This document shows positions 10,556 through 41,694 of a DNA stretch of 64,000 bases, one piece after another. The notes under the pieces are model-generated. The model was not told the DNA's origin. It searched no databases and worked only from the letters and a program-made list of their open reading frames with translations. The stretch spans positions 124,001-188,000 of the forward strand of contig NZ_CABPTO010000001.1 in the NCBI RefSeq assembly GCF_902460355.1. The letters are read 5' to 3'. A program made the translations under genes and the position numbers. This stretch comes from Streptococcus sp. Marseille-P6264 (GTDB lineage: Bacteria; Bacillota; Bacilli; Lactobacillales; Streptococcaceae). Numbering within the stretch: position 1 is the stretch's first letter; each line of letters opens with the position of its first letter.

Positions 10556-10987
10556 ATGTTTGAGAAGATTAAATTAGAGCCTTTAAACCAGTTTTATCCA
10601 GTGAATCTAGATGAGATTAGTGATAGTGAATCAAAGCTAGGCATTCAAATCCCTGAACTCCTCAAGGAATTTTATGTAGAAGTCGGATATGGCTTTCTAA
10701 AAAGCAGGGTGGACAATATAAATCGTATAATGGATCCAGAGTCAGTATTAGACTTTAGGTTGAGGCAACATGATTTTGAGTTTTATCCAGATATTGAAAT
10801 CTACAAGCAATTTGAGGATGATAAATTAGTTTTCTTTGAAGCCAATGAAGGAGTACTGCTATCTATCGGATTTGCTGCTGAAAATAAGGGGAAAATCTAC
10901 TATTATGATAAGGAAATTGTTCCCAATTTAGTAGAGTTTCTAGAACGGCTTATGGAAGATGACACCTTCTATTATGACTTGATATAG
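10556..10987 (+). CDS. SMI1/KNR4 (SUKH) family immunity protein
   Basis: A 143-residue SUKH-fold protein: an N-terminal ISDSESKLGIQIPELLKEFYVEVGYG block followed by strands ending in a GFAAENKGKIYYYD stretch. SUKH proteins neutralise the nuclease and other toxins of contact-dependent and LXG (type VII) systems. A strong AAAGGAGGGG lies 6 bases before the ATG. It is the first member of the immunity array; no toxin gene is near, so it may protect against toxins of other strains or be silent. Confidence 0.75.
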   Translation: MFEKIKLEPLNQFYPVNLDEISDSESKLGIQIPELLKEFYVEVGYGFLKSRVDNINRIMDPESVLDFRLRQHDFEFYPDIEIYKQFEDDKLVFFEANEGVLLSIGFAAENKGKIYYYDKEIVPNLVEFLERLMEDDTFYYDLI

Positions 10988-11073
10988 CTGGAGTTTTTTG
11001 GCGAACAGAAAACAATACCGATTTTCATAATCATGTTGAAAAGGTCGAGCGCTTTATCAATAGTATCAACTAA
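10987..11073 (+). pseudogene. C-terminal remnant of an unidentified small protein
   Basis: A 28-codon open stretch (GVFWRTENNTDF, then a VEKVERFINSIN-like end) runs to a stop at 11071 with no start codon or ribosome-binding site of its own. The ending on a helix with charged residues resembles a protein C-terminus. Likely scar of a lost cassette. Confidence 0.35.
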
Positions 11074-11109
11074 CTTCAAAAGCTAAAAGAATTAGATAGG
11101 ATGATGACA

Positions 11110-11538
11110 ATGACACAATTTGAAGATAAATTTATGGAAGTTCAGGCTAGTATGATTTCGTTAGCACTGGAATATGTACAAGATCAGGCAAATAAAATAT
11201 ACATTTATGCAATAGCAGATAGTTTATATAGTTTTAATTTGTTTTATGAAATAAAAGGGAACGTTGTACATAAACACTTGGTAAATAATTTCTTACCAGA
11301 TGATTCTCAAGTTGATATCGATCTACAATCAATCTTACTGAGAGAAGGTATCAAGGATGTAGAAAATATGATTAAAATTTGCCAAGAATACGGTCGCGAG
11401 CACCCAACTGAAAAGTGGTTGATTTATGACGCTCAGAAAAATAGTCTTGACAGTCGCTATAGCTATGAAGGGCGTTATGACAAGGACGAAGAATTGCTTC
11501 CACGACTAGAGTTTGAAAAATGGTTTGAGGAAGTGTAA
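11110..11538 (+). CDS. DUF600-like immunity protein, copy A
   Basis: A 142-residue protein from the ATG at 11110, chosen because the two paralogues at 16371 and 16827 start with the same MTQFEDKFME and because AGGATG (11098-11103) is well spaced from it; ATGs at 11101 and 11104 are too close. The first 25 and the last 40 residues (PTEKWLIYDA, SRYSYEGRYDKDEELLP, EKWFEEV) nearly match the paralogues, while the middle differs. By its end it resembles DUF600 proteins, the YezG/EsaG group of antitoxins for LXG-type nucleases; the assignment is from pattern. No toxin is adjacent. Confidence 0.6.
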   Translation: MTQFEDKFMEVQASMISLALEYVQDQANKIYIYAIADSLYSFNLFYEIKGNVVHKHLVNNFLPDDSQVDIDLQSILLREGIKDVENMIKICQEYGREHPTEKWLIYDAQKNSLDSRYSYEGRYDKDEELLPRLEFEKWFEEV

Positions 11539-11663
11539 GGCCAATAACTGTTTTCGATAATGAAATTGCATTGAATTGATGAAGCAGTGGAAAAAGACTG
11601 CATAGAAGGTAAGAAAGATTTTTGCTGTCACCTAGTTGACAAACTTGGAGAATAAAGAGAACA

Positions 11664-12143
11664 ATGAAATTGGATCATCAAATTTTCGGTAACATAGAAT
11701 TTAATAATGGCTGGACAAGACCTATTTCTATAACGATTTTCGGTAAGCAGCATGTTTTAGGGATAAATATTGATGCAGAGGAAGATGCAGAATTTGAAGT
11801 CAACCAAGAAAAAGCCTATACATTTTTTCAAGAACACTTAGATGAAATTCTAACAGAGGCTAATGCTGCTATTTTATCGTACTATAATCGTGAAATATCA
11901 AATATTGTTTCCAGTTTTACAAATTTAGCTGAAAAACAATCCTTTTTAAATAAAATTGGAGATGAGCAGTAAATTTATTCTCTGTTACAGCCTAAGCAAA
12001 TCATGTTTCCTCTAACCTTTGATGAAAGTGTTGAAGAATTTGGCTTTTTATGTGATTGTGGCTGGGATAAAGAAAATGGCATAGGAATAAAATTTACCAA
12101 TGGCCTTTTGTCTGAAATTGGCTATCAAGATATACTTCTATAA
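11664..12143 (+). pseudogene. DUF6985/DUF2004-like immunity gene broken by an in-frame TAA
   Basis: The frame starting at the ATG at 11664 stops at TAA 11970-11972 after 102 codons, but it continues in the same frame for another 56 codons to TAA 12141-12143. The continuation (FGFLCDCGWDKENGIG, then SEIGYQDILL) is the well-recognised end of DUF6985-type domains, and the first part (FNNGWTRPISITIFGK) is the matching beginning. One substitution therefore explains the break, and the full protein would be about 159 residues. A truncated product may still be made. Confirming the stop is real would need the read data. Confidence 0.65.
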
Positions 12144-12144
12144 G

Positions 12145-12234
12145 TATATAATTCATAAATTTGTCTATCTTTTATCAAATGCTTCTCAGCTTCAACCGTC
12201 CTATGCAAAGATTTTAGAAAAATCCAAAGTTTAA
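12145..12234 (+). pseudogene. C-terminal remnant of a small protein
   Basis: A 29-codon stretch ending SQLQPSYAKILEKSKV then stop, with no start codon. It directly follows the broken DUF6985-like gene in a different frame. Probably the tail of a lost cassette gene. Confidence 0.3.
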
Positions 12235-12292
12235 TAGGAAACAGGAGCCAGAGCAGTTTAGAGAAGTTTGGGAAAGGAAATCAAGTACGAAT

Positions 12293-12703
12293 ATGAAGTG
12301 GTTAAATTATAAGGGAATTTCTAAGGATATCATAAAAAGTGTGGAGCATAGATTGCAGATTACTCTACCAGATGATTATAAGCAAGTCGCTTTGAAATAT
12401 GATGCTGGTTATCCTAATCCCAATCATCTTAAGGTAGAAGGAAAGATAGAAATTTTCAACAATCTAATCAGCCTAGATGAGAATGAAGACAATAATATAT
12501 ATGAGATTCTTGAAGATCTACAAGATCGACTCGGTGACCAACTGATTCCCTTTGCGGAAGATGGTTTTGGAAATTTATTATGTTTTGATTATTCAGCTGA
12601 GAAAAGCATAGTTTTTTGGAATCATGAAAAGAACTATGATAAGTTTAAAGAAGCGACCTTTGTTTGTTCAAGTTTTTCTAGTCTAATTGAGAGTCTTTTT
12701 TAA
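12293..12703 (+). CDS. SMI1/KNR4 (SUKH) family immunity protein
   Basis: A 136-residue SUKH protein: N-terminal ISKDIIKSVEHRLQITLPDDYKQVAL block, then IPFAEDGFGNLLCFDYS, the hallmark strand-turn of SUKH-1, and a VFWNHE stretch. Family members bind and inactivate toxins delivered by neighbours. The upstream GGAAAGGAAATC provides a ribosome-binding site. It is different in sequence from the SUKH gene at 10556, so this is not a duplication. No toxin gene is adjacent. Confidence 0.82.
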   Translation: MKWLNYKGISKDIIKSVEHRLQITLPDDYKQVALKYDAGYPNPNHLKVEGKIEIFNNLISLDENEDNNIYEILEDLQDRLGDQLIPFAEDGFGNLLCFDYSAEKSIVFWNHEKNYDKFKEATFVCSSFSSLIESLF

Positions 12704-12817
12704 GAAATATAGACTTTCTATGTACGATCTTCTTGGTAAATGATATCGACGTGCCAATAGTGAGATTTTAAGTATGATGGGAAAAGGCATAGAACAGATT
12801 ATAGAAAGGTTACTTGA

Positions 12818-13150
12818 ATGGTAGAATATGAAAACAACAAACTAATAGTGAATGGTGAAATTACTAAAATTTTTCAGTTTGCTATACGAGATCTAATAGA
12901 AGTGGATGAGGAGTGTATTGTTTTATTAGAAATACCTTTTGATAGTTTGGAGAAAAATAATATTATCAGACTTGATTGTAGAGGAACTGTAGTTTGGACC
13001 ATTGCTAACAGTGGATACAGTAAGCTTATTTATTCGTTCGAACAGATGATTTTGATAGATGGCTGGCTTTATGCGACGGATTTTTATGCTAGAAGATGCA
13101 AAATTGATATAAGCTCAGGAAAAATAGTGGATGTGTCTATATCCAAATAA
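12818..13150 (+). CDS. hypothetical small protein of the immunity array
   Basis: A 110-residue protein of unknown family. It is predicted β-rich, with repeated short strands and turns (DCRGTVVWTI and DGWLYATDFYARRCKIDISSGKIV), which resembles one or two blades of a propeller-like fold. GAAAGG lies 10 bases before the ATG. Position among immunity genes, size and AT-rich codon use suggest an immunity function; this is inference from context. No signal peptide or membrane segment. Confidence 0.5.
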   Translation: MVEYENNKLIVNGEITKIFQFAIRDLIEVDEECIVLLEIPFDSLEKNNIIRLDCRGTVVWTIANSGYSKLIYSFEQMILIDGWLYATDFYARRCKIDISSGKIVDVSISK

Positions 13151-13191
13151 TCACCTGAAATTATTTATTCCTAGGAAGGTGAATCGCAATA

Positions 13192-13290
13192 ATGAATCAG
13201 AATAATAAAGCATTATTTAAAATCAAAGCATTGAACTTGTTTGCTTCCATTTATGGGTGGCTTGCGATATTAATATTCTTTTTCCTATGA
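13192..13290 (+). CDS. possible 32-residue membrane peptide or gene remnant
   Basis: An ATG preceded by AGGAAGGTG opens a 32-codon frame with a single hydrophobic C-terminal segment (ASIYGWLAILIFFFL). It could be a small membrane peptide or the start of a truncated gene whose remainder was lost; the next 35 codons in another frame look like a separate gene tail. Confidence 0.25.
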   Translation: MNQNNKALFKIKALNLFASIYGWLAILIFFFL

Positions 13291-13292
13291 AT

Positions 13293-13388
13293 AGTAATAT
13301 TAGCAGGAGTAGTGGAGTTTGGTATTCTATGGAGCATGCATGGAAAGCTAAATTAAATGATATTCCTCTTGAAGAATTAATCAGATAA
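13293..13388 (+). pseudogene. C-terminal remnant of an unidentified protein
   Basis: A 31-codon open stretch containing SSGVWYSMEHAWKAKLND and ending LEELIR then stop has no start codon of its own. It looks like the tail of a larger protein, perhaps a toxin or immunity protein, left by recombination just before the EsaG-like gene. Confidence 0.3.
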
Positions 13389-13410
13389 GGAATAAACCAG
13401 GAGGTTAAAA

Positions 13411-13896
13411 ATGTTTGAAAATCAATTAAGCCAATTGTTTAATGATATAGCAAATAATGTAAATCGTATGATTCCGGTAACGTGGAATGATTTCTACTTT
13501 AATGTTGAGTTAAAGGAAGGGGACGGAGAAGTTTTTTTCTATTTTAATACGAAAGAAAGTCCTGAAAAATATATTTTCTCACATGATATACCAGTAATTT
13601 ATGATATTCCATTTTCCGAATATATGGACTCCTTTAATCAATTAATGAGTATTTCTAGAAATATTTTAGAGGTTTTAGAAAATAATAATCAACCTAAATG
13701 GTATGCAATGGTTTTAATAGTAAAATCTCGTAAGCAATTAAAAGTTGAGTTTGATTACACTGATTGGTTTGCAAGTCCCTTTACCTCTAATCAAAGGTTG
13801 TCTTTTTTTAAACATAAATGTTTAGGAGAAGAACCTGAAAATAATGATTTACTTCAACTTTTTAAAGAAATGGAAGAATATAAAAAACAAAGCTAA
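13411..13896 (+). CDS. EsaG/YezG-type (DUF600) antitoxin
   Basis: A 161-residue DUF600 protein. The N-terminal LSQLFNDIANNVNRMIP followed by a GEVFFYF strand, the SHDIPVIYDI turn, and the KVEFDYTDW block with a closing LGEEPEN are the pattern of Staphylococcus aureus EsaG and Bacillus YezG. EsaG binds and inactivates the type VII-secreted nuclease EsaD, and YezG is paired with YeeF. AGGAGG lies 7 bases before the ATG. No EsaD/YeeF-like nuclease gene is in the window, so this copy is orphan. Confidence 0.8.
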   Translation: MFENQLSQLFNDIANNVNRMIPVTWNDFYFNVELKEGDGEVFFYFNTKESPEKYIFSHDIPVIYDIPFSEYMDSFNQLMSISRNILEVLENNNQPKWYAMVLIVKSRKQLKVEFDYTDWFASPFTSNQRLSFFKHKCLGEEPENNDLLQLFKEMEEYKKQS

Positions 13897-13898
13897 AT

Positions 13899-13964
13899 AT
13901 CTACGATGAACGCTTGAGGGAGTTGGAGTATTTTACCTATGATTTGTTGGTGCAGGGAGAATAA
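13899..13964 (+). pseudogene. 22-codon tail of a third PoNi-type gene
   Basis: The stretch reads IYDERLRELEYFTYDLLVQGE then stop, almost the same as the ends of the two PoNi-type genes at 14645 and 15326. The 20 bases after it, up to the next start codon, also match the bases between those two genes. It is therefore the 3' end of a former copy, truncated by recombination right behind the EsaG-like gene. Confidence 0.85.
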
Positions 13965-13985
13965 GCTAAGCAAAGGAGTTAATAC

Positions 13986-14645
13986 GTGATAAGAGATAAA
14001 ATTCAAACAAAGGAATATTTTCAAGAAAATTTTGAATGGTATTCTAAAACATTACAGCGAAAAATAACTGAATTTCCTGATATAAATCCAGAGTATTATG
14101 AGCACCATTTTAGATCTATGGTGATTAATTATGAAGATTTATTAAGAGTTGGCTACTCTCTAGGCAAGGATGTTCAGGAACTCTTTCCTTATTATCAAGG
14201 GATCCTCTCAAATTTAAAAGAAGTCGCCTCCGAGGGAGTTTCCTTTTATCGTGCAGTTGATGTCTTTGCCTTGGGAGTTCTCTATAGTGAGCGCAAGGAA
14301 GAATTTCTGGATGATTTGAAGGCTATTTATGACCAGATGGACCACACAGATGGCTTGATTGAATACTACATGGTCTATCTATTCCATGATAAGATAGTTC
14401 CTTTTCATTCGATTTTAGAGTATCAAAATATGATTGAGGACACTTATGAGAGTGTAGCCAAGGCGCAGGGTTTCTGGTACTATAGCCATTCGGATGCTCC
14501 ATGGTATAACAACTATACCAAAGATACTTATGTAGGCTACTGGAGTTTTGACACCGCCGCAACCTGCAAGATAAAAGGAATCTACGACGAACGCTTGAAA
14601 GATTTGGAGTATTTTCCCTATGATTTGTTGGTGCAGGGAGATTAA
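13986..14645 (+). CDS. PoNi-type (DUF1910/DUF1911) immunity protein, copy 1
   Basis: A 219-residue helical protein ending in the DUF1911 signature (YVGYWSFDTAATCKIKGI, then YFPYDLL). DUF1911 proteins are PoNi immunity partners of PoNe DNase toxins secreted by type VI and type VII systems. The start codon is GTG, with AAGGAG 7 bases before it; copy 2 has ATG in the same context. From residue about 50 onward it is nearly identical to copy 2, while the first 50 residues differ. No PoNe nuclease lies next to it. Confidence 0.85.
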   Translation: MIRDKIQTKEYFQENFEWYSKTLQRKITEFPDINPEYYEHHFRSMVINYEDLLRVGYSLGKDVQELFPYYQGILSNLKEVASEGVSFYRAVDVFALGVLYSERKEEFLDDLKAIYDQMDHTDGLIEYYMVYLFHDKIVPFHSILEYQNMIEDTYESVAKAQGFWYYSHSDAPWYNNYTKDTYVGYWSFDTAATCKIKGIYDERLKDLEYFPYDLLVQGD

Positions 14646-14666
14646 GCTAAGAAAAGGAGTTAATAC

Positions 14667-15326
14667 ATGATAAGAGATAAAATTCAAACAGAGGAATACT
14701 TTCAAGAAGCATTTGAATGGTACTCTCAATGCTTACAGGAAGATATAGATGATTTTGAAAAGGAAAAACCTAAAGATCTCATGAGTCATTTTAGGTTCAT
14801 GGTCATTAATTATGAAGATTTATTAAGAGTTGGCTACTCTCTAGGCAAGGATGTTCAGGAGCTCTTTCCTTATTACCAAGGGATCCTCTCCAACTTAAAA
14901 GAGGCCGCTTCGGAAGGAGTTCCTTTTGACTTGGCGGTTGATATATTTGCCTTGGGAGTTCTCTATAGTGAACGCAAGGAAGAGTTTCTGGATGATTTGA
15001 AGGCTATTTATGAGCAGATGGACCACACAGATGGTTTGATTGAATACTACATGGTTTATCTATTCCATGATAAGATAGTTCCTTTTCATTCGATTTTAGA
15101 GTATCAAAATATGATTGAAGACACTTATGAGAGTGTAGCTAAGGCGCAGGGCTTCTGGTACTATAGCCACTCGGATGCTCCATGGTATAACAACCATACC
15201 AAAGATACTTATGTAGGCTACTGGAGTTTTGACACCGCCGCAACCTGCAAGATAAAAGGAATCTACGACGAGCGCTTGAAAGACCTAGAGTACTTTCCAT
15301 ATGATTTATTGGTGCAGGGAGAATAG
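14667..15326 (+). CDS. PoNi-type (DUF1910/DUF1911) immunity protein, copy 2
   Basis: A 219-residue tandem paralogue of the preceding gene, with ATG start and AAGGAG 7 bases upstream. The segment from MVINYEDLLRVGYSLGKD to the end is nearly identical to copy 1. The first 15 residues are also close to copy 1, but residues about 16-50 are different (CLQEDIDDFEKEKPKDLMSH here). This layout suggests that the variable segment sets which PoNe-type DNase is recognised; that is inference. It belongs to the DUF1911 family by its YVGYWSFDTAATCK motif. Confidence 0.85.
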   Translation: MIRDKIQTEEYFQEAFEWYSQCLQEDIDDFEKEKPKDLMSHFRFMVINYEDLLRVGYSLGKDVQELFPYYQGILSNLKEAASEGVPFDLAVDIFALGVLYSERKEEFLDDLKAIYEQMDHTDGLIEYYMVYLFHDKIVPFHSILEYQNMIEDTYESVAKAQGFWYYSHSDAPWYNNHTKDTYVGYWSFDTAATCKIKGIYDERLKDLEYFPYDLLVQGE

Positions 15327-32012: not shown

Positions 32013-32609
32013 ATGAACGAATGGGATTCCTTTTTGAGTGGGCTCATGGGAGCATTGTCTTGGAAAGATGGACAAGATAATGCTTTGCTGTTTGGAATGC
32101 CCAGTTGGACTTATTTATTAGGACTTGGTATTCACTTTTTGGTTATCATAGGATTTTTGGGGTTAATCCTATTTGAATTTTATAAAAATAAAGTTCGAGC
32201 CGGTTCTTGGAAGGGAGCTTTCAGAAACTCTTGGAATTATAATATATCTACGAATGGACGTGTCCAAAGTATTTTAAGTCTTGTGTTTGGCCTACCTATT
32301 ATTTTCATTGCAATTCCCTTCTATGCGGGCTATCGAATGAGCAATGGTATCTGGCGCTATCATTATTTTACTAATCAGACAACCGAGCTAAAAACGGCTT
32401 TAGTGACTGGTGTTGATACTGAGACCGGAGGAAGCAAGTCTACCTATTCTCGTATTACCTTCACTATTACGGTTGATGGGAAAGAGCGAGAGGTCAATAT
32501 TTCAGATAGTAATAAAAGTCTTGCTAGATCAGCTAAACAACATTTGAAGCCTCCGATAGCTATTGATGTTCATGTCAATCAAGAAGGGCAGATTGTATAT
32601 TTGAAATAA
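32013..32609 (+). CDS. hypothetical membrane protein (DUF3592-like tail)
   Basis: A 198-residue protein with two membrane segments (about 32-53, LGLGIHFLVIIGFLGLILFEFY, and about 88-107, LSLVFGLPIIFIAIPFYAGY) and a β-rich C-terminal part (about 125-198) with FTITVDGKEREVNIS and VHVNQEGQIVYL, like the small β-domain of DUF3592 proteins. The ATG has AAAGGGGG 7 bases upstream. Function unknown. It stands alone between thiI and the rplU operon. Confidence 0.6.
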   Translation: MNEWDSFLSGLMGALSWKDGQDNALLFGMPSWTYLLGLGIHFLVIIGFLGLILFEFYKNKVRAGSWKGAFRNSWNYNISTNGRVQSILSLVFGLPIIFIAIPFYAGYRMSNGIWRYHYFTNQTTELKTALVTGVDTETGGSKSTYSRITFTITVDGKEREVNISDSNKSLARSAKQHLKPPIAIDVHVNQEGQIVYLK

Positions 32610-32667
32610 ATGGAAGTAAAGTATGAGGATATTTAATTGAAAATCCGTTTTCATTAAATAAAATCAC

Positions 32668-32696
32668 TTGCCAAAGGTTAGTAGAAGTGCTATACT
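32668..32696 (+). promoter_or_regulatory. rplU operon promoter
   Basis: TTGCCA (32668-32673), 17 bases, TATACT (32691-32696): a strong vegetative promoter about 140 bases before rplU, leaving room for a structured leader. Confidence 0.85.
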
Positions 32697-32702
32697 AAGA
32701 AT

Positions 32703-32836
32703 GTTGACTATGCACGGCCTGTGCAACCGCTCGAACATCGTTGCTCACATAGTGAGTATAAAGTGGTTCGTCCCACGATGCTAGGCGAGTCTTCACAAAA
32801 ATATGGGGAAACCCCAAAAATCATAGGAGGTGCATA
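32703..32836 (+). ncRNA. ribosomal protein L21 leader
   Basis: About 130 bases between the promoter and rplU show conserved paired elements: GCACGGCCTGTGC near 32712, a branched middle (GTTCGTCCCAC ... GGCGAGTC), and a TGGGGAAACCCCA hairpin (32804-32816) just before the ribosome-binding site. It fits the L21 leader that precedes rplU-prp-rpmA in Firmicutes and is thought to allow feedback control. The call rests on position and visible pairing. Confidence 0.75.
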
Positions 32837-33151
32837 ATGAGCACATACGCAATCATTAAAACTGGCGGAAAACAAGTTAAAGTTGAAGTTGGTCAAGCTA
32901 TCTACGTTGAAAAATTGGATGTTGAAGCTGGTCAAGAAGTGACTTTTAACGAAGTTGTTCTTGTTGGTGGTGATAAAACTGTTGTCGGAACTCCACTTGT
33001 TTCTGGAGCTACTGTAGTTGGAACTGTTGAAAAACAAGGAAAACAAAAGAAAGTTGTTACTTTCAAGTACAAACCTAAAAAAGGTAGCCACCGCAAACAA
33101 GGTCACCGTCAACCTTACACTAAAGTTGTCATCAACGCAATCAACGCTTAA
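32837..33151 (+). CDS. rplU: 50S ribosomal protein L21
   Basis: A 104-residue L21: [19 protein letters not shown] at the start, [22 protein letters not shown] at the end, which binds 23S rRNA. Full length. AGGAGG 9 bases upstream. First gene of the L21-Prp-L27 operon. Confidence 0.98.
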
Positions 33152-33511
<360 letters not shown>

Positions 33512-33528
33512 CACGGAGGAAAAACACT

Positions 33529-33822
33529 ATGTTAAAAATGAATCTTGCAAGCTTGCAACTTTTCGCCCACAAAAAAGGTGGAGGTTCAACGTCAAACGGA
33601 CGTGATTCACAAGCAAAACGTCTTGGAGCTAAAGCAGCTGACGGACAAACTGTAACTGGAGGATCTATCCTTTACCGTCAACGCGGTACACACATCTACC
33701 CAGGTGTTAACGTTGGCCGCGGTGGAGACGATACATTATTCGCAAAAGTTGAAGGTGTAGTACGCTTTGAACGTAAAGGTCGCGATAAGAAACAAGTATC
33801 AGTTTACCCAATTGCGAAATAA
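33529..33822 (+). CDS. rpmA: 50S ribosomal protein L27 with Prp-cleaved N-terminal extension
   Basis: A 97-residue L27. The first residues read [13 protein letters not shown] followed by [13 protein letters not shown]; cleavage after the A would create the mature HKKGGG end that reaches the peptidyl-transferase centre. The start at 33529 is well spaced from GGAGG (33515-33519). Known from Staphylococcus: the extension must be removed for function. Terminator follows. Confidence 0.97.
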
Positions 33823-33834
33823 TTCATTATTGAT

Positions 33835-33868
33835 AAAAATCCCTGTCTCAAGATTGGGATTTTTATTT
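33835..33868 (+). terminator. rplU-prp-rpmA operon terminator
   Basis: AAAAATCCC (33835-33843) and GGGATTTTT (33856-33864) form a perfect 9-bp stem followed by ATTTTT. Confidence 0.9.
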
Positions 33869-33919
33869 TTGGAGAAAATGGAATCGTTTCCTTTTGTGAA
33901 ATCATTTTAAAAGAAATTG

Positions 33920-33949
33920 TTGCTACATGCAATGTTTTTTTTGTATAAT
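33920..33949 (+). promoter_or_regulatory. promoter of the NACHT gene
   Basis: TTGCTA (33920-33925), 18 bases, TATAAT (33944-33949) preceded by TTTG; 35 bases before the start codon. Confidence 0.65.
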
Positions 33950-33983
33950 AGAATTGTTATAAGGATATTCTAAGGAGGGCAAT

Positions 33984-35963
33984 ATGGGATTTCTGGGTTT
34001 AGCTATTTCAGCTTTGCTAAATAATACGTTGATCCAATTAAAAGATGAATTGGTGGACTTTGGTGTAGATAATTGGGAAAAATTTGAAACTGGATTTAAT
34101 AAAAGTTTCACCTCCTATTTTGAGGGTTCATTTAAAAGAGTGAAGAATGTTCCATTTGTCTTAAGCGGTACAAATAATATCGATTTGCTTTCTATTTTCC
34201 AGCCCACTTATTTAAAATCAGAAATAAGTCATGTGAGATGTTATACTGCTGATTTAGATAACATTTTAGAAAAATCTAATAATGCTTGGATTTATGGATA
34301 TGGTGGCATTGGTAAATCAACCATGCTGAAGTACTTTTTTCTTAAGGAGATTGAAAAAGCTACGAGTAATAATAATCAAAGAATTCCCATTTATATTGAA
34401 TTGAGGAAATATAATTTTGATTCGAAGAAAAGAAGGGAATTTTTAAATTTTATATATGAAGAAGCTAAAGTATTAGGGTTTGATTTAGAGTTTAAGTATT
34501 TTGAATATATGGCAAAAAAAGGGCGTTTTATTTTTCTTTTGGATGCTTTTGATGAAATAGCTTCAAATAATATGGAACAAGCGGCGACAGAGATAGAAGA
34601 ATTAGCCACTGAATATTCTAATAATCCAATCCTTGTGACTAGCCGAAAATTACCTTTTAACCATATAAATAATGCCTCTTTATTTCATCCCTATCAAACG
34701 AATGGTTTAAGTAAAAACGAAGCAATAGCATTAATAAAGCGCATCAGTAGATTGCCTGAATCAGAGCCAAGAGAAGAGGTGTTTGAACGATTTATCAAGA
34801 GTTTGGAAGAACAGTTATATGATGAATATCAATCATTTGCAGAAAATCCTATATTGCTTTTCTTGATGTTACAAATGTTTCAAAGAAATGCAAATTTTCC
34901 GACTGAGAAAGCTACTTTTATCAAAAATTCTTATCGACTGCTCTATAAAGAACATGATCATTCAAAATTAGTTGCTATGAAAAGACAATTTAAAACCGAC
35001 TTATCTGAGTCTACTATGTTGCGAGTGATTTCTTATCTTTGTTTTCTCACTTACTTTGAAAATAATGGAGAGAAATTAGAGTTTACAGAAAGTGAAATTC
35101 TTTCTTTGCTAGATAGGGTATTAAATCATGAAGATTCATCTTCAACAAGAGCAGAAGATTTGCTTGCTGATTTGATAACTTGTTTATGTATCATACATAA
35201 AGAGGGGCAATCTTACTATTTTGTTCATAATATTTTCCAAGAATTTTACGCTGCCAACTATTTATATGATTTGGATAATGAAGTTCAGGAACAATTTTTT
35301 AAAAATAATTTTCTTGAAATAAATATGAATGTGTGGTTGATTGATACCACTATAGAATATTATGCTGAGTTGGATAAAGAATTTAATAAGAAAAAGTTAA
35401 GCTACAATATCTTCCTGCCAGTTTCAGAAGAATTTAAATCTAGAAATAAAGGAAGAGGCTTTCTTGAATTGGATACGATTTCGTACAGAGTGATACTATT
35501 TCCTAAAGGTGAGGGGGACATTATTTTCTTTGATTTCGGTTCTTATTTTTTATATTATTTAATGGAATTTGCTGAAAAAATTTATTTAGTAGAGCAATAT
35601 AAAAAACTGCCTTTGCCTGTAAAATTTCCCAAAATTAAAGAAAAAGATATTTTTTATATTTTCAAATATCATGATAATTTAACGGATGAAGAGAATTTTC
35701 AACTGCGTGTTAAAATTCATAATGAACTCCAAAACGTAAAACTAACAAGTGAAGCAATGGAACTTATGGAAAAGTATAAGCTAGACTTGATTAATTTCTC
35801 TATTGACTATAGTACGATTCGTAAAGACGCTGCATGGTATGAAGTCTTCAAAAATAGTAGCGCATATGAGCGCTTAAAGGCTATTGACGACTGGGTAAAC
35901 AAGACAAGACTCGAAAAAGAAGCGGACAAAAGGAAAATTCCAATTTTGAATTTTAAAAAATAA
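33984..35963 (+). CDS. NACHT-domain NTPase, probable stand-alone anti-phage protein
   Basis: A 659-residue STAND-class protein. A short N-terminal helical region (1-90) is followed by the NACHT module: P-loop GYGGIGKST (105-113), a Walker B of NACHT type FIFLLDAFDEI (182-192, with the extra acidic residue), a sensor-like PILVTSRK near 214-221, the LSKNEAIALIKRI arm, and a winged-helix-like region ending DLITCLCIIHKEGQSYYFVHNIFQEFYAANYL near 400-430. The C-terminal 220 residues show no LRR, TPR or recognised nuclease. Bacterial NACHT (bNACHT) proteins defend against DNA and RNA phages, often from single-gene loci like this one. Own promoter and a terminator-like hairpin after the stop. AAGGAGGGC precedes the ATG. 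Low GC compared with neighbours suggests acquisition. Confidence 0.8.
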   Translation: MGFLGLAISALLNNTLIQLKDELVDFGVDNWEKFETGFNKSFTSYFEGSFKRVKNVPFVLSGTNNIDLLSIFQPTYLKSEISHVRCYTADLDNILEKSNNAWIYGYGGIGKSTMLKYFFLKEIEKATSNNNQRIPIYIELRKYNFDSKKRREFLNFIYEEAKVLGFDLEFKYFEYMAKKGRFIFLLDAFDEIASNNMEQAATEIEELATEYSNNPILVTSRKLPFNHINNASLFHPYQTNGLSKNEAIALIKRISRLPESEPREEVFERFIKSLEEQLYDEYQSFAENPILLFLMLQMFQRNANFPTEKATFIKNSYRLLYKEHDHSKLVAMKRQFKTDLSESTMLRVISYLCFLTYFENNGEKLEFTESEILSLLDRVLNHEDSSSTRAEDLLADLITCLCIIHKEGQSYYFVHNIFQEFYAANYLYDLDNEVQEQFFKNNFLEINMNVWLIDTTIEYYAELDKEFNKKKLSYNIFLPVSEEFKSRNKGRGFLELDTISYRVILFPKGEGDIIFFDFGSYFLYYLMEFAEKIYLVEQYKKLPLPVKFPKIKEKDIFYIFKYHDNLTDEENFQLRVKIHNELQNVKLTSEAMELMEKYKLDLINFSIDYSTIRKDAAWYEVFKNSSAYERLKAIDDWVNKTRLEKEADKRKIPILNFKK

Positions 35964-35991
35964 ATCGGCAATATCTGCTGATTTATTTAGT
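35962..35991 (+). terminator. terminator of the NACHT gene
   Basis: AAATCGGCA and TGCTGATTT pair around ATATC immediately after the stop codon, followed by ATTTAGTTTT. Confidence 0.6.
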
Positions 35992-36006
35992 TTTGAAATC
36001 GTTTCC

Positions 36007-36035
36007 TTGACATTTTCTCTTCTTAGTGTTTTAAT
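36007..36035 (+). promoter_or_regulatory. promoter of the persulfide module
   Basis: TTGACA (36007-36012), 17 bases, TTTAAT (36030-36035), 32 bases before the first rhodanese gene. Confidence 0.75.
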
Positions 36036-36053
36036 ATACCCTATAGGGGTATA
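36035..36053. promoter_or_regulatory. CstR/CsoR-type operator
   Basis: TATACCCTATAGGGGTATA is a near-perfect palindrome (TATACCC/GGGTATA around the centre, one extra G) directly overlapping the -10 end and transcription start. It has the form of operators bound by CsoR/CstR repressors (TACCC...GGGTA). The likely repressor is encoded at 38533-38787 on the other strand. Confidence 0.8.
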
Positions 36054-36066
36054 AAGGAGAAAAAAT

Positions 36067-36372
36067 ATGTTTCATTTTTTTACAAAAATAGATAGTATTT
36101 CAACGGATGAGTTGGAGAAGCGATTGAAGTCCAATATCCAATTAATTGATGTACGGATGCCATCCGAATTTCGTAGAGGACATATCAAAGAGGCCCAGAA
36201 TGTTCCTTTGAGCCAAATTGGTCAATTTGCTCCATCTAATAAGGAGACAATTTACGTCATCTGCCATTCAGGCATGCGAAGCAAGATGGCAGCGAAAAAG
36301 CTGAAGAAAAAGGGCTATGATGTTGTCAATGTCCGCGGTGGTATGAGCGCTTGGACAGGGAAAACCATTTAA
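36067..36372 (+). CDS. rhodanese-like sulfurtransferase
   Basis: A 101-residue single-domain rhodanese with active-site loop CHSGMRS (Cys near 81) after a DVRMPSEFRRGHI signature. It would move persulfide sulfur in the cytoplasm. No clear signal peptide: the N-terminal FHFF is short. It is the first gene of a three-gene operon with the CoA-disulfide reductase-like fusion and a second rhodanese. GGAG precedes the ATG at 9 bases. Confidence 0.9.
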   Translation: MFHFFTKIDSISTDELEKRLKSNIQLIDVRMPSEFRRGHIKEAQNVPLSQIGQFAPSNKETIYVICHSGMRSKMAAKKLKKKGYDVVNVRGGMSAWTGKTI

Positions 36373-36388
36373 GTAGAAAGGAACAACA

Positions 36389-38041
36389 ATGAAAATTATT
36401 ATCATTGGTGGAGTTGCAGGCGGTATGTCTGCGGCAACACGTTTAAGACGGCTGGTGGAAGATGCTGAAATTGTAATTTTTGAAAAAGGTCCTTTTGTAT
36501 CTTTTGCGAACTGCGGCCTTCCTTATTATATTTCTGGTGAAATTGCTGAGCGAGACTCTCTTTTGGTTCAAAAACCTGAAAGTCTCAAGGCACGCTTCAA
36601 TTTGGATGTACGTCCTTTTCATGAGGTGGTGAAGATTTCGCCTGAGGAGCACACTGTGACGGTGGCTCATGATGGTTCAGAGTTCACAGAGCAGTATGAC
36701 AAGCTGATTCTTTCACCTGGGGCGAAGCCTTTTATTCCTAAGATTGAAGGACTTTCAGAAGCAATTAATGTATTCACTTTGCGCAATGTTCCAGACTTGG
36801 ATCAGATCATGTTAGCCTTGGATGAAGAGCCTCAAGAGGCTGTTGTCATCGGTGCTGGATTTATCGGTCTGGAAACGGCTGAAAATCTGCGCAAGCGTGG
36901 CTTGAATGTGACAATCGTAGAAAAAGCGCCGCATGTTTTGCCACCACTGGATGAGGAAATGGCAGCTTTTGTCCAAGCGGAATTAGTTGATAAGGGAGTG
37001 AAAGTCATCACTTCCCAGTCAGCTACTCGCTTCGAAGAAAATGGTAAAGCGATTGTCTTGGAAAATGGACAAAAATTGGCTTCAGATGTAACCATTCTCT
37101 CTGTCGGGGTCCAGCCTGAAAATAGCTTGGCTAAGGCAGCAGGCATTGAGACGGGTCTTCGTGGGGGCATCTTAGTTGATGAGCATTATGAAACGAGCCA
37201 GAAAGATATTTTTGCAGTCGGGGACGCCATCCTTGTCAAGCAGGAAATTACTGGCGATGATGCCTTGATTGCTCTAGCTTCGCCTGCTAATCGACAAGGA
37301 CGTCAGGTGGCAGATGTGATTGCTGGCTTGGAGCGGAAGAATAAGGGAAGCATTGGCACGGCTATTGTGCGTGTCTTTGACATGACAGCGGCTTTAACAG
37401 GTCTGAACGAGCGTTTCCTTCAGCAAAATCATTTGCCTTACCAAGTGATTCATGTCAGCGGTAAGGATCATGCGGGCTACTATCCAGGTGCGACTGACTT
37501 GACCTTGAAATTGCTCTTTGAGCCAAAAACTGGAAAAATCTATGGTGCTCAAGGTGTTGGTAAAAAAGGCGTTGACAAGCGGATTGATATCTTGGCGACG
37601 GCTATCAAGGGCAATCTAATGATTTTTGATTTGCCAGAGCTGGAGTTTACCTATGCACCACCTTTTGGCTCAGCTAAGGATCCAGTCAATATGCTGGGCT
37701 ATGCAGCTATGAATTTAGTAGAAGGCTTGAGTGAAAATATCCAATGGCACCAGCTGGAAGACGAGTTAGCACGCGGGAAAGTCTTTTTAGATGTCCGGAC
37801 ACTTAATGAGTTTAAGAAAGGATGCCTGAAGGCGGACAAGACAGTCCATATTCCTCTAAATGAACTCAGAGAACGTTTGAATGAGCTGGATAAGGAAGCA
37901 GAATATATCGTAAGCTGTCACAGCGGTCTGCGCAGCTATATTGCCGAGCGAATCTTAAAACAAGCAGGCTTTGCAGTGAAAAATCTAGACGGAGCCTATG
38001 CTTTATACAAAATGGTAAAACCAGAAGGAGTAGAAAAATGA
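36389..38041 (+). CDS. CoA-disulfide/CoA-persulfide reductase fused to rhodanese
   Basis: A 550-residue FAD- and NAD(P)H-dependent reductase with an added rhodanese domain. Visible: FAD-binding GGVAGGMSAATRLRR (about 7-21), the active Cys of the family in SFANCGLPYYISG (Cys near 43), NAD-binding VIGAGFIGLETAENL (about 152-166), FAVGDAI (about 273-279), and the C-terminal rhodanese (about 455-550) with DVRTLNEFKKG and CHSGLRS. Fusions of this type (CoADR-Rhd/Npsr/CoAPR) reduce CoA persulfide and polysulfide. It overlaps the following rhodanese gene by 4 bases (ATGA). Confidence 0.93.
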   Translation: MKIIIIGGVAGGMSAATRLRRLVEDAEIVIFEKGPFVSFANCGLPYYISGEIAERDSLLVQKPESLKARFNLDVRPFHEVVKISPEEHTVTVAHDGSEFTEQYDKLILSPGAKPFIPKIEGLSEAINVFTLRNVPDLDQIMLALDEEPQEAVVIGAGFIGLETAENLRKRGLNVTIVEKAPHVLPPLDEEMAAFVQAELVDKGVKVITSQSATRFEENGKAIVLENGQKLASDVTILSVGVQPENSLAKAAGIETGLRGGILVDEHYETSQKDIFAVGDAILVKQEITGDDALIALASPANRQGRQVADVIAGLERKNKGSIGTAIVRVFDMTAALTGLNERFLQQNHLPYQVIHVSGKDHAGYYPGATDLTLKLLFEPKTGKIYGAQGVGKKGVDKRIDILATAIKGNLMIFDLPELEFTYAPPFGSAKDPVNMLGYAAMNLVEGLSENIQWHQLEDELARGKVFLDVRTLNEFKKGCLKADKTVHIPLNELRERLNELDKEAEYIVSCHSGLRSYIAERILKQAGFAVKNLDGAYALYKMVKPEGVEK

Positions 38042-38331
38042 AAACTATATCAGCAGCTGACTTAGAAAAGCAGTATCAATCTGAAAAATTGGCTATCGTA
38101 GATGTGCGCGAAAGGCATGAATTTCAATCGGGTCATATCCCAAATGCTGGAAATCTTCCGCTCAGTGAGTTGGAAACTGGCTATAAAAAGCTGGATCCTG
38201 ACTACAAATACTATGTCATTTGCCAAGGTGGAGCGCGTTCAGCGACTGCTTGCCAGTTTCTTGCCATGCAGGGCTTTGATGTGACCAACGTATCAGGTGG
38301 CATGAACGCTTGGTCTGGAGAGACGGAATAA
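38038..38331 (+). CDS. rhodanese-like sulfurtransferase
   Basis: A 97-residue rhodanese with active-site loop CQGGARS and the DVRERHEFQSGHI signature. It overlaps the fusion gene by 4 bases, implying translational coupling. The loop differs from the other two rhodanese loops of the operon (CHSGMRS, CHSGLRS), suggesting a different sulfur acceptor or donor. Confidence 0.9.
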   Translation: MKTISAADLEKQYQSEKLAIVDVRERHEFQSGHIPNAGNLPLSELETGYKKLDPDYKYYVICQGGARSATACQFLAMQGFDVTNVSGGMNAWSGETE

Positions 38332-38338
38332 AGGATAA

Positions 38339-38522
38339 AAAGAGAATGGGACAGAAATCGGTAATTCGTTAGAATTCGATTTCGTCGTCCCACCTCCGAA
38401 CAGTTGAGTAGGGCTGTAAAAGCTGATGAAATCAGCCTAGTAGAGTCCATTCAACCACTGCGTCTTGCTCGACAATCCAAAGACAATTGAGAGGCTAGGA
38501 CTTTTGTCCCAGCCTCTTTTTT
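38339..38522. repeat. 184-bp structured intergenic repeat, copy 1 (inverted relative to copy 2)
   Basis: Reverse-complement relative of 54995-55178 with about 94% identity by eye. Ends carry inverted AAAGAG..TGGGACA sequences. Internal elements include a long stem built of GGGAC..CGAAATCG..CGATTTC..GTCCC and a GCTGATGAAATCAGC hairpin. It lies between the convergent persulfide operon and the CstR-like gene and can serve as a terminator for both. MITE-like, no coding capacity. Confidence 0.9.
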
Positions 38523-38532
38523 CCTGTTCTTC

Positions 38533-38787
38533 TTATTTTCGGTTTACCAGAAAATGAATAGCTTTCTCTATTCTTTCCCTTTGTTTTTTCGGATCATCAG
38601 ATGGATTTTCTAGGCAATCCGTTAAATTCTCAGTAATAACCATCTCAATCACACGATCAACGCTGGAGCGGACGGCAAATAACTGTGTGAGAATATCTGA
38701 ACATTCCCTGTCCTCTTCAATCATTTTTTGAATGCCTCTCAACTGACCTTCAGAGCGCTTGAGGCGAGTAATATAATTAGTATTCAC
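38533..38787 (-). CDS. cstR: CstR-like persulfide-sensing repressor (CsoR/RcnR family)
   Basis: An 84-residue DUF156 protein: LKRSEGQLRGIQKMIEEDRECSDILTQL is the helical core. Two Cys (29 and 58) are spaced exactly as in S. aureus CstR (31 and 60), while the copper-ligand His four residues before the second Cys is Asn here, so it should sense persulfides rather than Cu(I). Start codon is GTG with GAGGA 6 bases upstream. It is convergent with the persulfide operon, whose promoter carries the matching operator. Confidence 0.85.
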   Translation of the reverse strand: MNTNYITRLKRSEGQLRGIQKMIEEDRECSDILTQLFAVRSSVDRVIEMVITENLTDCLENPSDDPKKQRERIEKAIHFLVNRK

Positions 38788-38804
38788 GGTGATTTCCTCG
38801 TTTG

Positions 38805-38855
38805 TTTACATTGAGTTTATTATATGCTTAATCTGTATATTTGTCAATTGGATTG
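38805..38855 (-). promoter_or_regulatory. promoter of the CstR-like gene
   Basis: On the minus strand TTGACA, 17 bases, TATAAT are visible between about 38820 and 38850, about 30 bases before the GTG start. No palindrome like that at 36035 is seen here. Confidence 0.75.
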
Positions 38856-38905
38856 GTTGGAGGCAGTTTTCAGAAATTTTCCATAATGACTCTCTGATTC
38901 TTCTA

Positions 38906-38934
38906 TTTACTTTTCATCATAATTTTGGTATAAT
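38906..38934 (+). promoter_or_regulatory. promoter of the peptide-binding lipoprotein gene
   Basis: TTTACT (38906-38911), 17 bases, TATAAT (38929-38934) with TGG before the -10. A 120-base leader follows, with an ATGTTA..TGTAACAT hairpin near 38940-38958. Confidence 0.65.
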
Positions 38935-39056
38935 AGTTTATGTTATAAAATGTAACATAGAAATTGGACTAAGATTAATATTGGATCAAATAAAGGAATG
39001 GCTTTATTTTTACTTCTCTTATTCTTAGGCTTCTCTCGATTTTTGGAGGTGTATTT

Positions 39057-41021
39057 ATGAAAGTATCAAAAATGCTTTTAGCTACTGGAGTGGTACTTAG
39101 TGCAGGCGTGTTCTTGTCGGCTTGTGGCAAATCCTCATCTGGTACATCAACGTATTCTTATGTTTATGCCAGCGATCCTGATAGTTTGAACTATCTGACA
39201 GCCAACCGTGCTACCACGTCAGACGTTATTACAAACCTTGTTGACGGTCTTTTAGAAAATGACGAATATGGAAATTTAGTTCCCTCTCTTGCAGAATCAT
39301 GGACAGTTTCTCAAGATGGCCTAACCTATACATATAAGCTCCGTAAGGACGCTAAGTGGTTCAATGTTGAAGGTGAAGAAATTGCAAATGTTAAAGCTCA
39401 GGACTTTGTGACAGGTCTTAAGTATGCGGCTGATAATAAGTCTGAGGCGCTTTACCTGATTCAAGAATCGATTAGTGGCCTGGATGCCTATGTCAAAGGT
39501 GATGAAAAAGACTTCTCAAAAGTTGGAGTGAAGGCGGTAGATGATTATACTGTTCAATACACGCTGACACGCTCAGAGCCTTATTGGAACTCTAAAACTA
39601 CGAATAATATCTTGTTCCCTGTCAATGAAGAATTTTTGAAGTCTAAAGGAAAAGATTTTGGTTCTGTTGATCCATCAAGTATTCTTTACAACGGTCCTTT
39701 CCTTTTGAAATCTTTGACTTCTAAATCGTCTATGGAATTCGTTAAGAATCCAAATTATTACGATAAAGACAAGGTCAGTCTAGAACATGTCAAATTAACC
39801 TACTATGATGGGTCAGACCAAGAATCTTTAATTCGCAACTTCAGTGATGGTGCTTATAGTGGTGCACGTCTCTATCCGAATACTTCAGGATACGCGGCAG
39901 TTAAAAAGAAATATGCGGACAATATCCTTTATAGCCCACAGGATGCGACCTCATATTACTTTAATTTCAACTTCAACCGTCAATCTTACAATCACACTTC
40001 CAAAACAAGTGATGCTCAAAAGAATGCAACAAAAGAAGCGGTTTTAAATAAAGACTTCCGTCAGGCCGTCAATTTTGCCCTTGACCGTACTTCTTATGGT
40101 GCGCAAAGTAATGGTAAAGATGGAGCTACCAAGCAGTTGAGAAATACGCTTGTCCCTCCAACATTTGTTCAAATTGGCGATCAAACATTTGGCCAAGTCG
40201 TTGCCTCTAAATTAGTGAATTATGGTACAGAATGGGCTAATATCGACCTGACAGATGCTCAAGATGCTTATTATAATCCAGAAAAAGCCAAAGCAAGATT
40301 TGCTAAAGCTAAGGAAGCTTTAGAGTCTAAGGGAGTTCAATTCCCAATTCATTTAGACCTTCCTGTAGACCAGGCTGACAAGGTGAGTATCCAATGGGCA
40401 AGTTCAGTAAAACAATCAATTGAATCAACCTTGGGTGCAGAAAATGTAGTGATTGACCTGCAGAAGATTAGTGTGGATGATTTGAACAACATCACCTATT
40501 TTGCAAATACTGCAGCTCAAAAAGACTATGACTTCTATACAGGAGGCTGGTCAGCTGACTATCAAGACCCATCTACCTACTTAGATACTCTAAATGTAAA
40601 TAATGGCGCTAGCTTGCAAAACTTTGGTTTTGAGCCAGGCCAAGATATGGAGAAGATGAAAGAGCTGGGCTTGGACACTTATACTAAGATGTTGGAAGAG
40701 GCAAATGCTGAAACAACAGATGTTAAAGTTCGCTATGAAAAATATGCGGATGCACAAGCTTGGTTGCTGGATAGTGGGATTATCATGCCGACCATTTCAG
40801 GAGGCGGTAGTCCTTCTGTAAGTAAGTCCAAACCTTTCAGTCGTGCCTATTCACTCGTTGGAATCAAGGGATCTGGCTTCAACTTTAAATATACAAAACT
40901 CAGAAGTGAAATTGTAACGACCAAAGAATATGAAGAAGCTAAGAAGAAATGGCAAGAAAAAACGTTAGAATCTAACAAAAAAGCCCAAGAAGAGCTAGCA
41001 GATCATATTGAAAAGAAATAA
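39057..41021 (+). CDS. oligopeptide ABC transporter substrate-binding lipoprotein (AmiA/HppA type)
   Basis: A 654-residue lipoprotein: signal peptide with lipobox LSAC (Cys 23), then a solute-binding protein family 5 domain (YVYASDPDSLNYL near 35, LVPSLAESWTVSQDGLTYTYKLR near 77, RQAVNFALDRTSYG near 338). It resembles AmiA/AliA/AliB and the Hpp proteins of S. gordonii that deliver peptides, including signalling peptides, to the Ami permease. No permease or ATPase genes adjoin it, as is common for these orphan binding proteins. GGAGG 8 bases before the ATG. Confidence 0.93.
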   Translation: MKVSKMLLATGVVLSAGVFLSACGKSSSGTSTYSYVYASDPDSLNYLTANRATTSDVITNLVDGLLENDEYGNLVPSLAESWTVSQDGLTYTYKLRKDAKWFNVEGEEIANVKAQDFVTGLKYAADNKSEALYLIQESISGLDAYVKGDEKDFSKVGVKAVDDYTVQYTLTRSEPYWNSKTTNNILFPVNEEFLKSKGKDFGSVDPSSILYNGPFLLKSLTSKSSMEFVKNPNYYDKDKVSLEHVKLTYYDGSDQESLIRNFSDGAYSGARLYPNTSGYAAVKKKYADNILYSPQDATSYYFNFNFNRQSYNHTSKTSDAQKNATKEAVLNKDFRQAVNFALDRTSYGAQSNGKDGATKQLRNTLVPPTFVQIGDQTFGQVVASKLVNYGTEWANIDLTDAQDAYYNPEKAKARFAKAKEALESKGVQFPIHLDLPVDQADKVSIQWASSVKQSIESTLGAENVVIDLQKISVDDLNNITYFANTAAQKDYDFYTGGWSADYQDPSTYLDTLNVNNGASLQNFGFEPGQDMEKMKELGLDTYTKMLEEANAETTDVKVRYEKYADAQAWLLDSGIIMPTISGGGSPSVSKSKPFSRAYSLVGIKGSGFNFKYTKLRSEIVTTKEYEEAKKKWQEKTLESNKKAQEELADHIEKK

Positions 41022-41027
41022 GAGATT

Positions 41028-41061
41028 AAAAGATTAACTTTCTTTGAGAGTTAATCTTTTT
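41028..41061 (+). terminator. lipoprotein gene terminator
   Basis: AAAAGATTAACT (41028-41039) pairs perfectly with AGTTAATCTTTT (41049-41060), followed by T. Confidence 0.9.
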
Positions 41062-41128
41062 GATTTGATCTACATTAAGAATTTTATAAAAGGAGCCATT
41101 TAGGCTTGTTTTTTTGTGAAAAATTAGT

Positions 41129-41134
41129 TATAAT
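41129..41134 (+). promoter_or_regulatory. -10 of tRNA-Arg promoter
   Basis: TATAAT lies 10 bases before the tRNA 5' end with TTGTTT about 17 bases upstream. Confidence 0.55.
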
Positions 41135-41144
41135 AAATAAGTTG

Positions 41145-41216
41145 CCACCCTTAGTGTAATGGATATCACGTAAGATTCCGGTTCTTGAGATGGGAGTTCG
41201 ATTCTCTCAGGGTGGA
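41145..41216 (+). tRNA. tRNA-Arg (anticodon CCG)
   Basis: A 72-base cloverleaf: acceptor CCACCCT with AGGGTGG, T8-A9, D arm with GGAT loop, anticodon stem TAAGA/TCTTG around loop TTCCGGT (anticodon CCG), and T arm with GTTCGATTC. CCA is not encoded; the discriminator base is A. Confidence 0.93.
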
Positions 41217-41277
41217 TGACTGAAGCTTGGACTCGTGAGAGTCCTTTTTTGTTGTCTAAGAGAGGAGATAGATTGCC

Positions 41278-41694
41278 ATGGCAGTGAAGTTAATCGCTCA
41301 TACCTTGATTGAGAATAATGGACAGTATTTGCTGATCAAACGCTCAAAAATAAAGCGCGGCCTTCCTAATGTCTATCCATGCTATTGGGATATTCCTGGC
41401 GGAATCGTAGAAGAGAACGAACTACCCAGAGAAGCGGCTATACGCGAGGCTATAGAAGAGGTTAATCAAAAGATTCGAATTGATAAGATTATTCATGAGG
41501 ATAGTCAGTTTGATGCTAGCAAAGATACTGTTTTCACGCGCTTAGTTTATGCAGGTAGTTTTTTGGAAGAGCGTAATATTATATTAGATCCAGAAGAGCA
41601 TACAGACTTTATTTGGCTTTCTTCTTTGGAGAATTTAGAGGGGGAGCTGATCGTTTCTTATTTGCTTGATATTTTTGCTGACAGATCCACATAA
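41278..41694 (+). CDS. NUDIX hydrolase
   Basis: A 138-residue NUDIX protein. The box GGIVEENELPREAAIREAIEEVNQ gives the metal-binding REXXEE; the last conserved Gly of the motif is Asn here. YPCYWDIPGG precedes it. It would hydrolyse a nucleoside diphosphate-linked substrate; which one cannot be told. GAGAGGAG 12 bases before the ATG. Monocistronic between the tRNA and the convergent ldh. Confidence 0.88.
   Translation: MAVKLIAHTLIENNGQYLLIKRSKIKRGLPNVYPCYWDIPGGIVEENELPREAAIREAIEEVNQKIRIDKIIHEDSQFDASKDTVFTRLVYAGSFLEERNIILDPEEHTDFIWLSSLENLEGELIVSYLLDIFADRST

Follow-up and report, generated by a model that had tools for sequence, protein, structure and literature searches.

A solitary NACHT gene with a polymorphic C-terminal end at a variably occupied chromosomal site in Streptococcus: a probable anti-phage STAND switch

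Introduction

A single gene for a NACHT-domain protein, located between a ribosomal operon and a persulfide (rhodanese) operon of the oral streptococcus Streptococcus sp. Marseille-P6264, raises the question of what such a solitary gene does at this site and how it came to be there. Members of bNACHT clade 14, which have a SNaCT C-terminus and no discernible effector, include phage-protective proteins, according to a PLoS Biology article (PMC12169576). Many bNACHT proteins have no known trigger. The gene was analysed within its window, i.e. the whole stretch of 64,000 nucleotides of one contig, and compared with genomes of the genus, family and order, plasmid records and virus-labelled contigs. 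The coordinates of all features are collected in Table 1. To the original prediction of a stand-alone bacterial NACHT protein, the analysis adds what is most informative about the locus: its empty sites, a direct repeat on both flanks and a hypervariable putative sensor.

Genomic context and expression signals

The NACHT gene is a complete and intact open reading frame with an ATG start, preceded by the ribosome binding site AAGGAGGG at positions 33972-33979. Its low GC content, noted in the original prediction, amounts to 29.8%, compared to 38-45% in the adjacent genes. The predicted placement was also borne out: upstream lie rplU, prp (Pfam Peptidase_Prp) and rpmA, where the names rplU and rpmA are our assumption and not the outcome of a family search, and downstream follow a rhodanese gene, a gene ending in a rhodanese domain, which we take to be CoA-disulfide-reductase-like (Pfam Pyr_redox and rhodanese domains), and a second rhodanese gene. 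Candidates were also found for the promoter and the terminator that had been proposed for the gene itself. All five alleles described below retain the promoter-like site, G021 with a single difference in the −35 element and G026 with one additional base in the spacer; the consensus scan gave 12 promoter-like matches in the region versus 12.7 ± 4.1 in shuffles, which is chance level. The hairpin at the 3′-end comprises 13 pairs and was equalled in stability by none of 200 shuffles; its U tract is short, and it is not among the sites listed by the consensus scan.

Among the neighbouring genes scanned with Pfam from 32013 to 41694, no known defence family was detected. A 198-aa protein encoded at 32013-32609 had no Pfam match and is 66-70% identical over nearly its full length in five near relatives, compared to 92-100% for the other flanking genes. 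Elsewhere in the window, immunity-type genes form an array at positions 10556-15326 (two SUKH/SMI1_KNR4, one YezG-like and two PoNi), suggesting that a polymorphic-toxin locus has its immunity tail here, and positions 6750-9598 carry a second low-GC (28.7%) pair, a gene for a 325-aa protein without Pfam match followed by an AAA_21 ATPase gene (AbiEii-like label), possibly a further defence pair. Upstream of the rhodanese operon the palindrome ATACCCTATAGGGGTAT at 36036-36052, which we assume to resemble a CstR/CsoR-type operator, is altered in G022; in the same genome the full CoA-disulfide-reductase-like gene was not found between the two rhodanese genes.

Table 1. Features of the NACHT locus and of a repeat-bounded NACHT gene in a second streptococcus. 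Positions are those of the window, except for the last line (positions in L198).
Feature	Position	Strand	Basis
Left 15-bp direct repeat copy (TGGAATCGTTTCCTT)	33879..33893	+	also fits cre consensus
Sigma-70-like promoter TTGCTA-18-TATAAT	33920..33949	+	10/12 consensus matches; kept in five alleles
NACHT-domain STAND protein gene, 659 aa	33984..35963	+	ORF, Pfam, genus search, structure matches
N-terminal region of ~97 residues with a linker and two predicted helices (2-26, 31-53); no effector recognised	33984..34274	+	Pfam E 10, model
P-loop (Walker A) GYGGIGKS, residues 105-112	34296..34319	+	motif, alignment
Acidic Walker B FIFLLDAFDEI, residues 182-192	34527..34559	+	motif, alignment
Sensor-1-like PILVTSRK, residues 215-222	34626..34649	+	S220/R221 invariant in 15 sequences
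EHDHSK motif, residues 323-328	34950..34967	+	H324, D325, K328 invariant in 15 sequences
Winged-helix end motif (HxxFQE) FVHNIFQEFYAA, residues 413-424	35220..35255	+	H415/Q419/E420 invariant in 15 sequences
C-terminal putative sensor, residues 441-659 (~219 residues)	35304..35960	+	no Pfam match; allele divergence
Most variable stretch, about residues 491-630; block replaced in allele G019	35454..35873	+	block identities
Conserved C-terminal tail, residues 636-659	35889..35960	+	21-24/24 residues identical, all ten allele pairs
3′ hairpin, probable intrinsic terminator	35958..35988	+	−13.5 kcal/mol, z −5.6
Right direct repeat copy (TGAAATCGTTTCCTT), rhodanese operon promoter region	35994..36008	+	single copy in five empty sites
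G216 repeat copies (L198)	7362-7484, 9465-9587		123 bp each

NACHT module and predicted structure

The Pfam NACHT family matched residues 102-252 of the window protein (E 9.7e-9; 35.7 bits, cutoff 26.7). Of the two NACHT matches in the 2.04-Mb genome assembly, this is the only one over the cutoff. In a 15-member alignment that takes in Streptococcus, Lactococcus, E. coli plasmid and Vibrio phage members, the residues G110/K111/S112, D187/D190/E191, R221, H415 and Q419 are invariant. With the family match above its cutoff and the catalytic residues invariant, the complete NACHT module with P-loop and acidic Walker B that had been read from the sequence stands. The protein has two of the parts expected of a bNACHT protein, a NACHT NTPase with Walker A and acidic Walker B motifs and an NLR-like helical and winged-helix part, the latter judged by the HxxFQE motif and by a model that aligns to NLRC4 over residues 34-530.

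The AlphaFold model of the full-length protein (29 sequences) reached a pLDDT of 80 and a pTM of 0.66. Its best PDB matches are NLRC4, NOD2 and NLRP3 (Foldseek E 9.5e-12), and the comparison with NLRC4 gave a VIA Z of 20.5 over 397 aligned residues with an rmsd of 7.9 and 15% identity. Since residues past 536 are barely covered, the structural match backs the module only. Among viral models, the best match was a phage protein named NLR-family-like.

The part beyond the module had been described as a C-terminal sensor of about 220 residues without recognisable repeats, and this description agrees with the ~219 residues found there, for which no Pfam family was detected at E 10. When modelled alone, this domain showed an order of helices and strands much as in the full model, at a pLDDT of 60 and with no PDB match under E 1, and no fold is claimed for it. 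The N-terminal region likewise matched no Pfam family at E 10. A membrane-active N-terminal helix was considered and rejected: it was suggestive at first measure, and a fairer block control left only a mild excess (median 15%). The amphipathicity of the N-terminus of the window protein (P0001) was matched by 10% of its other blocks, and 16 of 51 proteins had theirs in their own top 10%, the 51 being what was left of 62 rows after dropping 11 duplicates or uncertain starts.

Relatives and phylogenetic position

A search of the genus yielded matches at E ≤ 1e-10 in 17 of 284 genomes, comprising five full-length copies and 12 distant relatives (27-32% identity), the latter with neither rpmA nor rhodanese genes within ~1.5 kb on either side. 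The searches at family level (19 of 335 at 1e-20) and order level (9 of 395 at 1e-30) gave counts that overlap with the genus genomes. Plasmid records matched in 190 cases at E ≤ 1e-5, of which 129 were typed conjugative. With the pattern of the 15-member alignment, 285 matches were obtained among virus-labelled contigs, of which 107 encode relatives at tblastn E ≤ 1e-3 and 80 were kept; many of the 107 are NACHT proteins that differ in architecture, and host DNA can be present on contigs of this kind. Many of the relatives on these contigs have 100-350 additional residues ahead of the NACHT domain; of the ten proteins scanned, eight have such an extension, and no Pfam family was detected in it at E 0.001. 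The scan of virus-labelled contigs with a single protein as query returned eight pattern matches and no relatives. A 14.8-kb Vinavirales Vibrio phage carries a NACHT gene (L069, 2725-4512) that was labelled NLR_like_bNACHT01 by its depositors and takes up a large share of this genome.

In a tree of the NACHT module (51 rows; 54 chosen, three left out because the motif pattern failed; midpoint root for drawing only), the window protein, three alleles, the Lactococcus protein and one protein from the order Lactobacillales form a clade with 100/100 support. The window protein falls among SNaCT-type proteins and apart from three NCH2-bearing cyanobacterial proteins, but the separating branch is tiny, and the NCH2 side also includes four proteins from virus-labelled contigs. 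As in clade 14, a short C-terminal domain (~219 residues past residue 440) follows right after the module and no effector is discernible. Among the relatives, Pfam SNaCT families gave seven matches for A1 (15 members) and 19 for A3 (29 members), counted as family-member matches so that a member matching two families would count twice; in two relatives SNaCT7 begins at residues 452 and 446. None of these families was detected in the C-terminal domain of the window protein at E 10, and likewise none in WP_015632533.1 at E 0.001. The assignment of the C-terminal domain to SNaCT7 by profile comparison was rejected (57% probability over 51 tail columns against the Streptococcus relatives, 12% when only the five alleles were used, and <1% for four further sets). 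The relatives of the window protein are SNaCT-type solitary bNACHT proteins. Its sequence, the alignment, the predicted structure and the tree all support the assignment of the window protein to the bNACHT family.

Insertion site and empty sites

The first rhodanese gene was found at E ≤ 1e-20 in 66 of the 284 genus genomes, and the ten of these with at least 90% identity were taken as near relatives (S. cristatus-type). In five of the ten (G000, G019, G021, G022 and G026) the NACHT gene lies between rpmA and the rhodanese operon, while in the other five (G020, G023, G024, G025 and G199) the site is empty and rpmA and the rhodanese gene are separated by a gap of about 130 bp. Given this occupancy and the low number of matches in the genus, the gene is not core; a core gene was the case in which the original prediction was to be given up.

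The insert measures 2115 bp from repeat start to repeat start and is flanked by the 15-bp direct repeat, which is single in the empty sites. In the window the two repeat copies differ by one base, whereas the left copy in G022 equals the right one; the right copy of G019 has a change of its own, and the left copy of G026 diverges past TTTC. Of the six occurrences of the 11-bp repeat core in the genome, two are at the NACHT locus. In a tree of the flanking genes built on about 2 kb, the empty state appears in two places (four genomes together with support 0.96, and G023 beside G019 with 0.94), which indicates more than one gain or loss, or a recombination that moved the gene.

Solitary insertions at other loci

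A distant solitary NACHT gene in G216 follows the gene of oligopeptidase F (pepF) and is bounded by a direct repeat of the 3′-end of pepF with 98% identity between its copies. Three of 137 genomes searched (G281, G146 and G147) contain the repeat and the sequence following it as a single unbroken match of 92-94%, which identifies the right repeat copy of G216 as the native junction. Homology-assisted integration of transforming DNA could give such flanking repeats. A 14-bp AT-rich repeat surrounds the NACHT gene at the Lactococcus locus and could instead represent two promoter elements. Among the 14 relatives tested, these two loci are the only ones whose repeat exceeds all 100 shuffled pairs (single-base shuffles); for the other 12, the longest exact repeat is within reach of at least one of 100 shuffled pairs (by 1 for L020 and by 4 for L018). 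The 14 tests are not independent because six of them (L016-L021) belong to one locus. Those neighbours that were scanned at the distant loci proved ordinary (oligopeptidase F, uvrA, polC, DEAD helicase, TPP enzyme, copper-type ATPase and a surface protein), apart from two neighbours of the NACHT gene in G629 that had no match.

Allele diversification

The five alleles (G000, G019, G021, G022 and G026) have intact reading frames of 659-662 aa, and as each comes from a different species-level genome the comparison is one between species and not within. Their identity amounts to 90-96% over residues 1-444 and to 42-92% over residues 445-659. In blocks of ten residues, G019 compared to the other four alleles drops from 0.88 at residues 481-490 to 0.10-0.47 over 491-630 and returns to 0.97 at 641-650, whereas the other four are 0.52-1.00 identical among themselves across 491-630. 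This stretch of ~140 residues in G019 is ~25-29% identical to the other alleles, with conserved arms on both sides, and the nucleotide identity along the G019 comparisons runs from 0.84-0.97 to 0.38-0.63 and back to 0.87-0.92. A donor of the divergent stretch was searched for among the 284 genus genomes, where only the five alleles matched (E 0.001), and the C-terminal domain as query gave no match in phage records at E 0.01.

The nearest partner of an allele changes between the halves of the gene: G022 and G000 share 95.5% in the N-terminal and 82% in the C-terminal half, G022 and G026 share 90% and 92%, and G021 and G026 share 96% and 78%. This change points to recombination within the NACHT gene. 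Taken as descriptive values, the dN/dS ratios of the 10 allele pairs lie at 0-0.39 over residues 1-440. Between residue 441 and about residue 630 they amount to 0.39-1.18, with a single undefined value (441-490). The comparisons with G019 in the variable stretch carry little weight because dS exceeds 1.5.

Proposed function and alternative explanations

The window protein resembles the anti-phage bNACHT proteins of clade 14 described in PMC12169576 and is therefore read, with good though not full confidence, as a solitary bNACHT anti-phage STAND switch (NTPase) with a polymorphic C-terminal sensor, its gene being mobile on its own. The observations behind this reading are the intact module, the NLR-like predicted fold, the patchy single-gene insertion, the low dN/dS of the module and the C-terminal diversification with block replacement. 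At rest, the NACHT module would be ADP-bound and silent. Either a molecule made by the phage or a host factor altered by it would engage the C-terminal domain of ~220 residues, which would act as the sensor, and nucleotide exchange would then lead to oligomerisation of the module. The N-terminus would be the effector, whose clustered helices would bring about growth stop or death of the infected cell, and phages would be the selecting agent.

NLRs in fungi are self/non-self recognition receptors. It is conceivable, if unlikely, that the streptococcal protein has a similar role in conflict with kin or competitors and that its polymorphic end reads cellular and not phage molecules; polymorphism with exchange of the recognition end would fit, and the immunity-type array (SUKH, YezG-like, PoNi) lies in the same window. 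However, relatives are present on virus-labelled contigs, and the bNACHT proteins described in PMC12169576 are, in the part consulted, anti-phage.

We regard it as quite improbable that the protein, instead of serving in defence, regulates the adjacent persulfide operon or acts as its stress switch. All five full-length copies are located directly upstream of the rhodanese operon, and both repeat copies fit the cre consensus (33878-33892 and 35993-36007; the consensus WTGNAANCGNWNNCW is the one we assume), so that a shared catabolite control of the two promoters is conceivable and catabolite control of the NACHT gene and the rhodanese operon is possible on the basis of these motifs. However, the cre-like pattern occurs three times in the window with 1.1 expected, and 12 of 100 shuffles reach three. 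Moreover, the five near relatives with an empty site have the same operon start without the NACHT gene, the distant relatives examined adjoin other genes (oligopeptidase F, uvrA, polC, DEAD helicase and TPP enzyme), and the NACHT gene has its own promoter-like site and an intervening hairpin. That the gene is a passenger of transformation or of a mobile element, without maintained function and drifting to loss, would suit its low GC content, patchy presence and neat single-copy empty site but is equally improbable in view of five intact frames and the low dN/dS of the module.

A more specific picture is put forward tentatively, at somewhat short of an even chance: a naturally polymorphic bacterial NLR at one fixed chromosomal site would combine a constant switch with a recognition end that is swapped like a cassette, with conserved arms on either side. 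The whole receptor would move between streptococcal genomes as a single gene with repeat-bounded insertion and without a recombinase of its own, perhaps by natural transformation. The insertion of a single gene between repeats, which recurs at the pepF locus of a second streptococcus, bears on how lone defence genes spread without a surrounding element. As their switch is almost constant and their C-terminal ends differ, the five alleles represent natural domain swaps that could serve to map phage specificity to the sensor directly, and the empty sites provide matched comparisons without the NACHT gene.

Comparison with known systems

The similarity to EruA (NCBIfam NF058535) is weak and local (residues 183-359), and the protein differs from it in score (20.7 bits, equivalog cutoff 1000) and length (659 aa, model of 1318 positions). 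AVAST (Avs) systems share the STAND NTPase logic with the window protein; in contrast to these, no PADLOC family matched it at E 1, no enzymatic N-terminal family was detected, and its C-terminal part is presumably shorter. Animal NLRs (NLRC4, NOD2, NLRP3) have the same NACHT and winged-helix architecture as the predicted model, whereas the window protein is the product of a bacterial single gene and has no CARD, PYD or leucine-rich repeat family according to Pfam.

The layout is shared with bNACHT clade 14 (bNACHT02, bNACHT12), i.e. a single gene for about 600-660 aa with a short non-enzymatic N-terminus, a NACHT module and a short C-terminal domain straight after the HxxFQE motif. WP_015632533.1, which we take to be bNACHT01 and to be placed with clade 14, is 24% identical over residues 39-485. 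The window protein differs from clade 14 in a C-terminal domain that fits no Pfam SNaCT family, in its position in a clade of its own with 100/100 support and in a C-terminal end that is polymorphic among near relatives. Going by titles and the beginnings of abstracts, no literature on a NACHT protein of S. cristatus was found, although similar diversification may already have been published. New here is the strong C-terminal divergence between alleles as opposed to a near-constant switch module.
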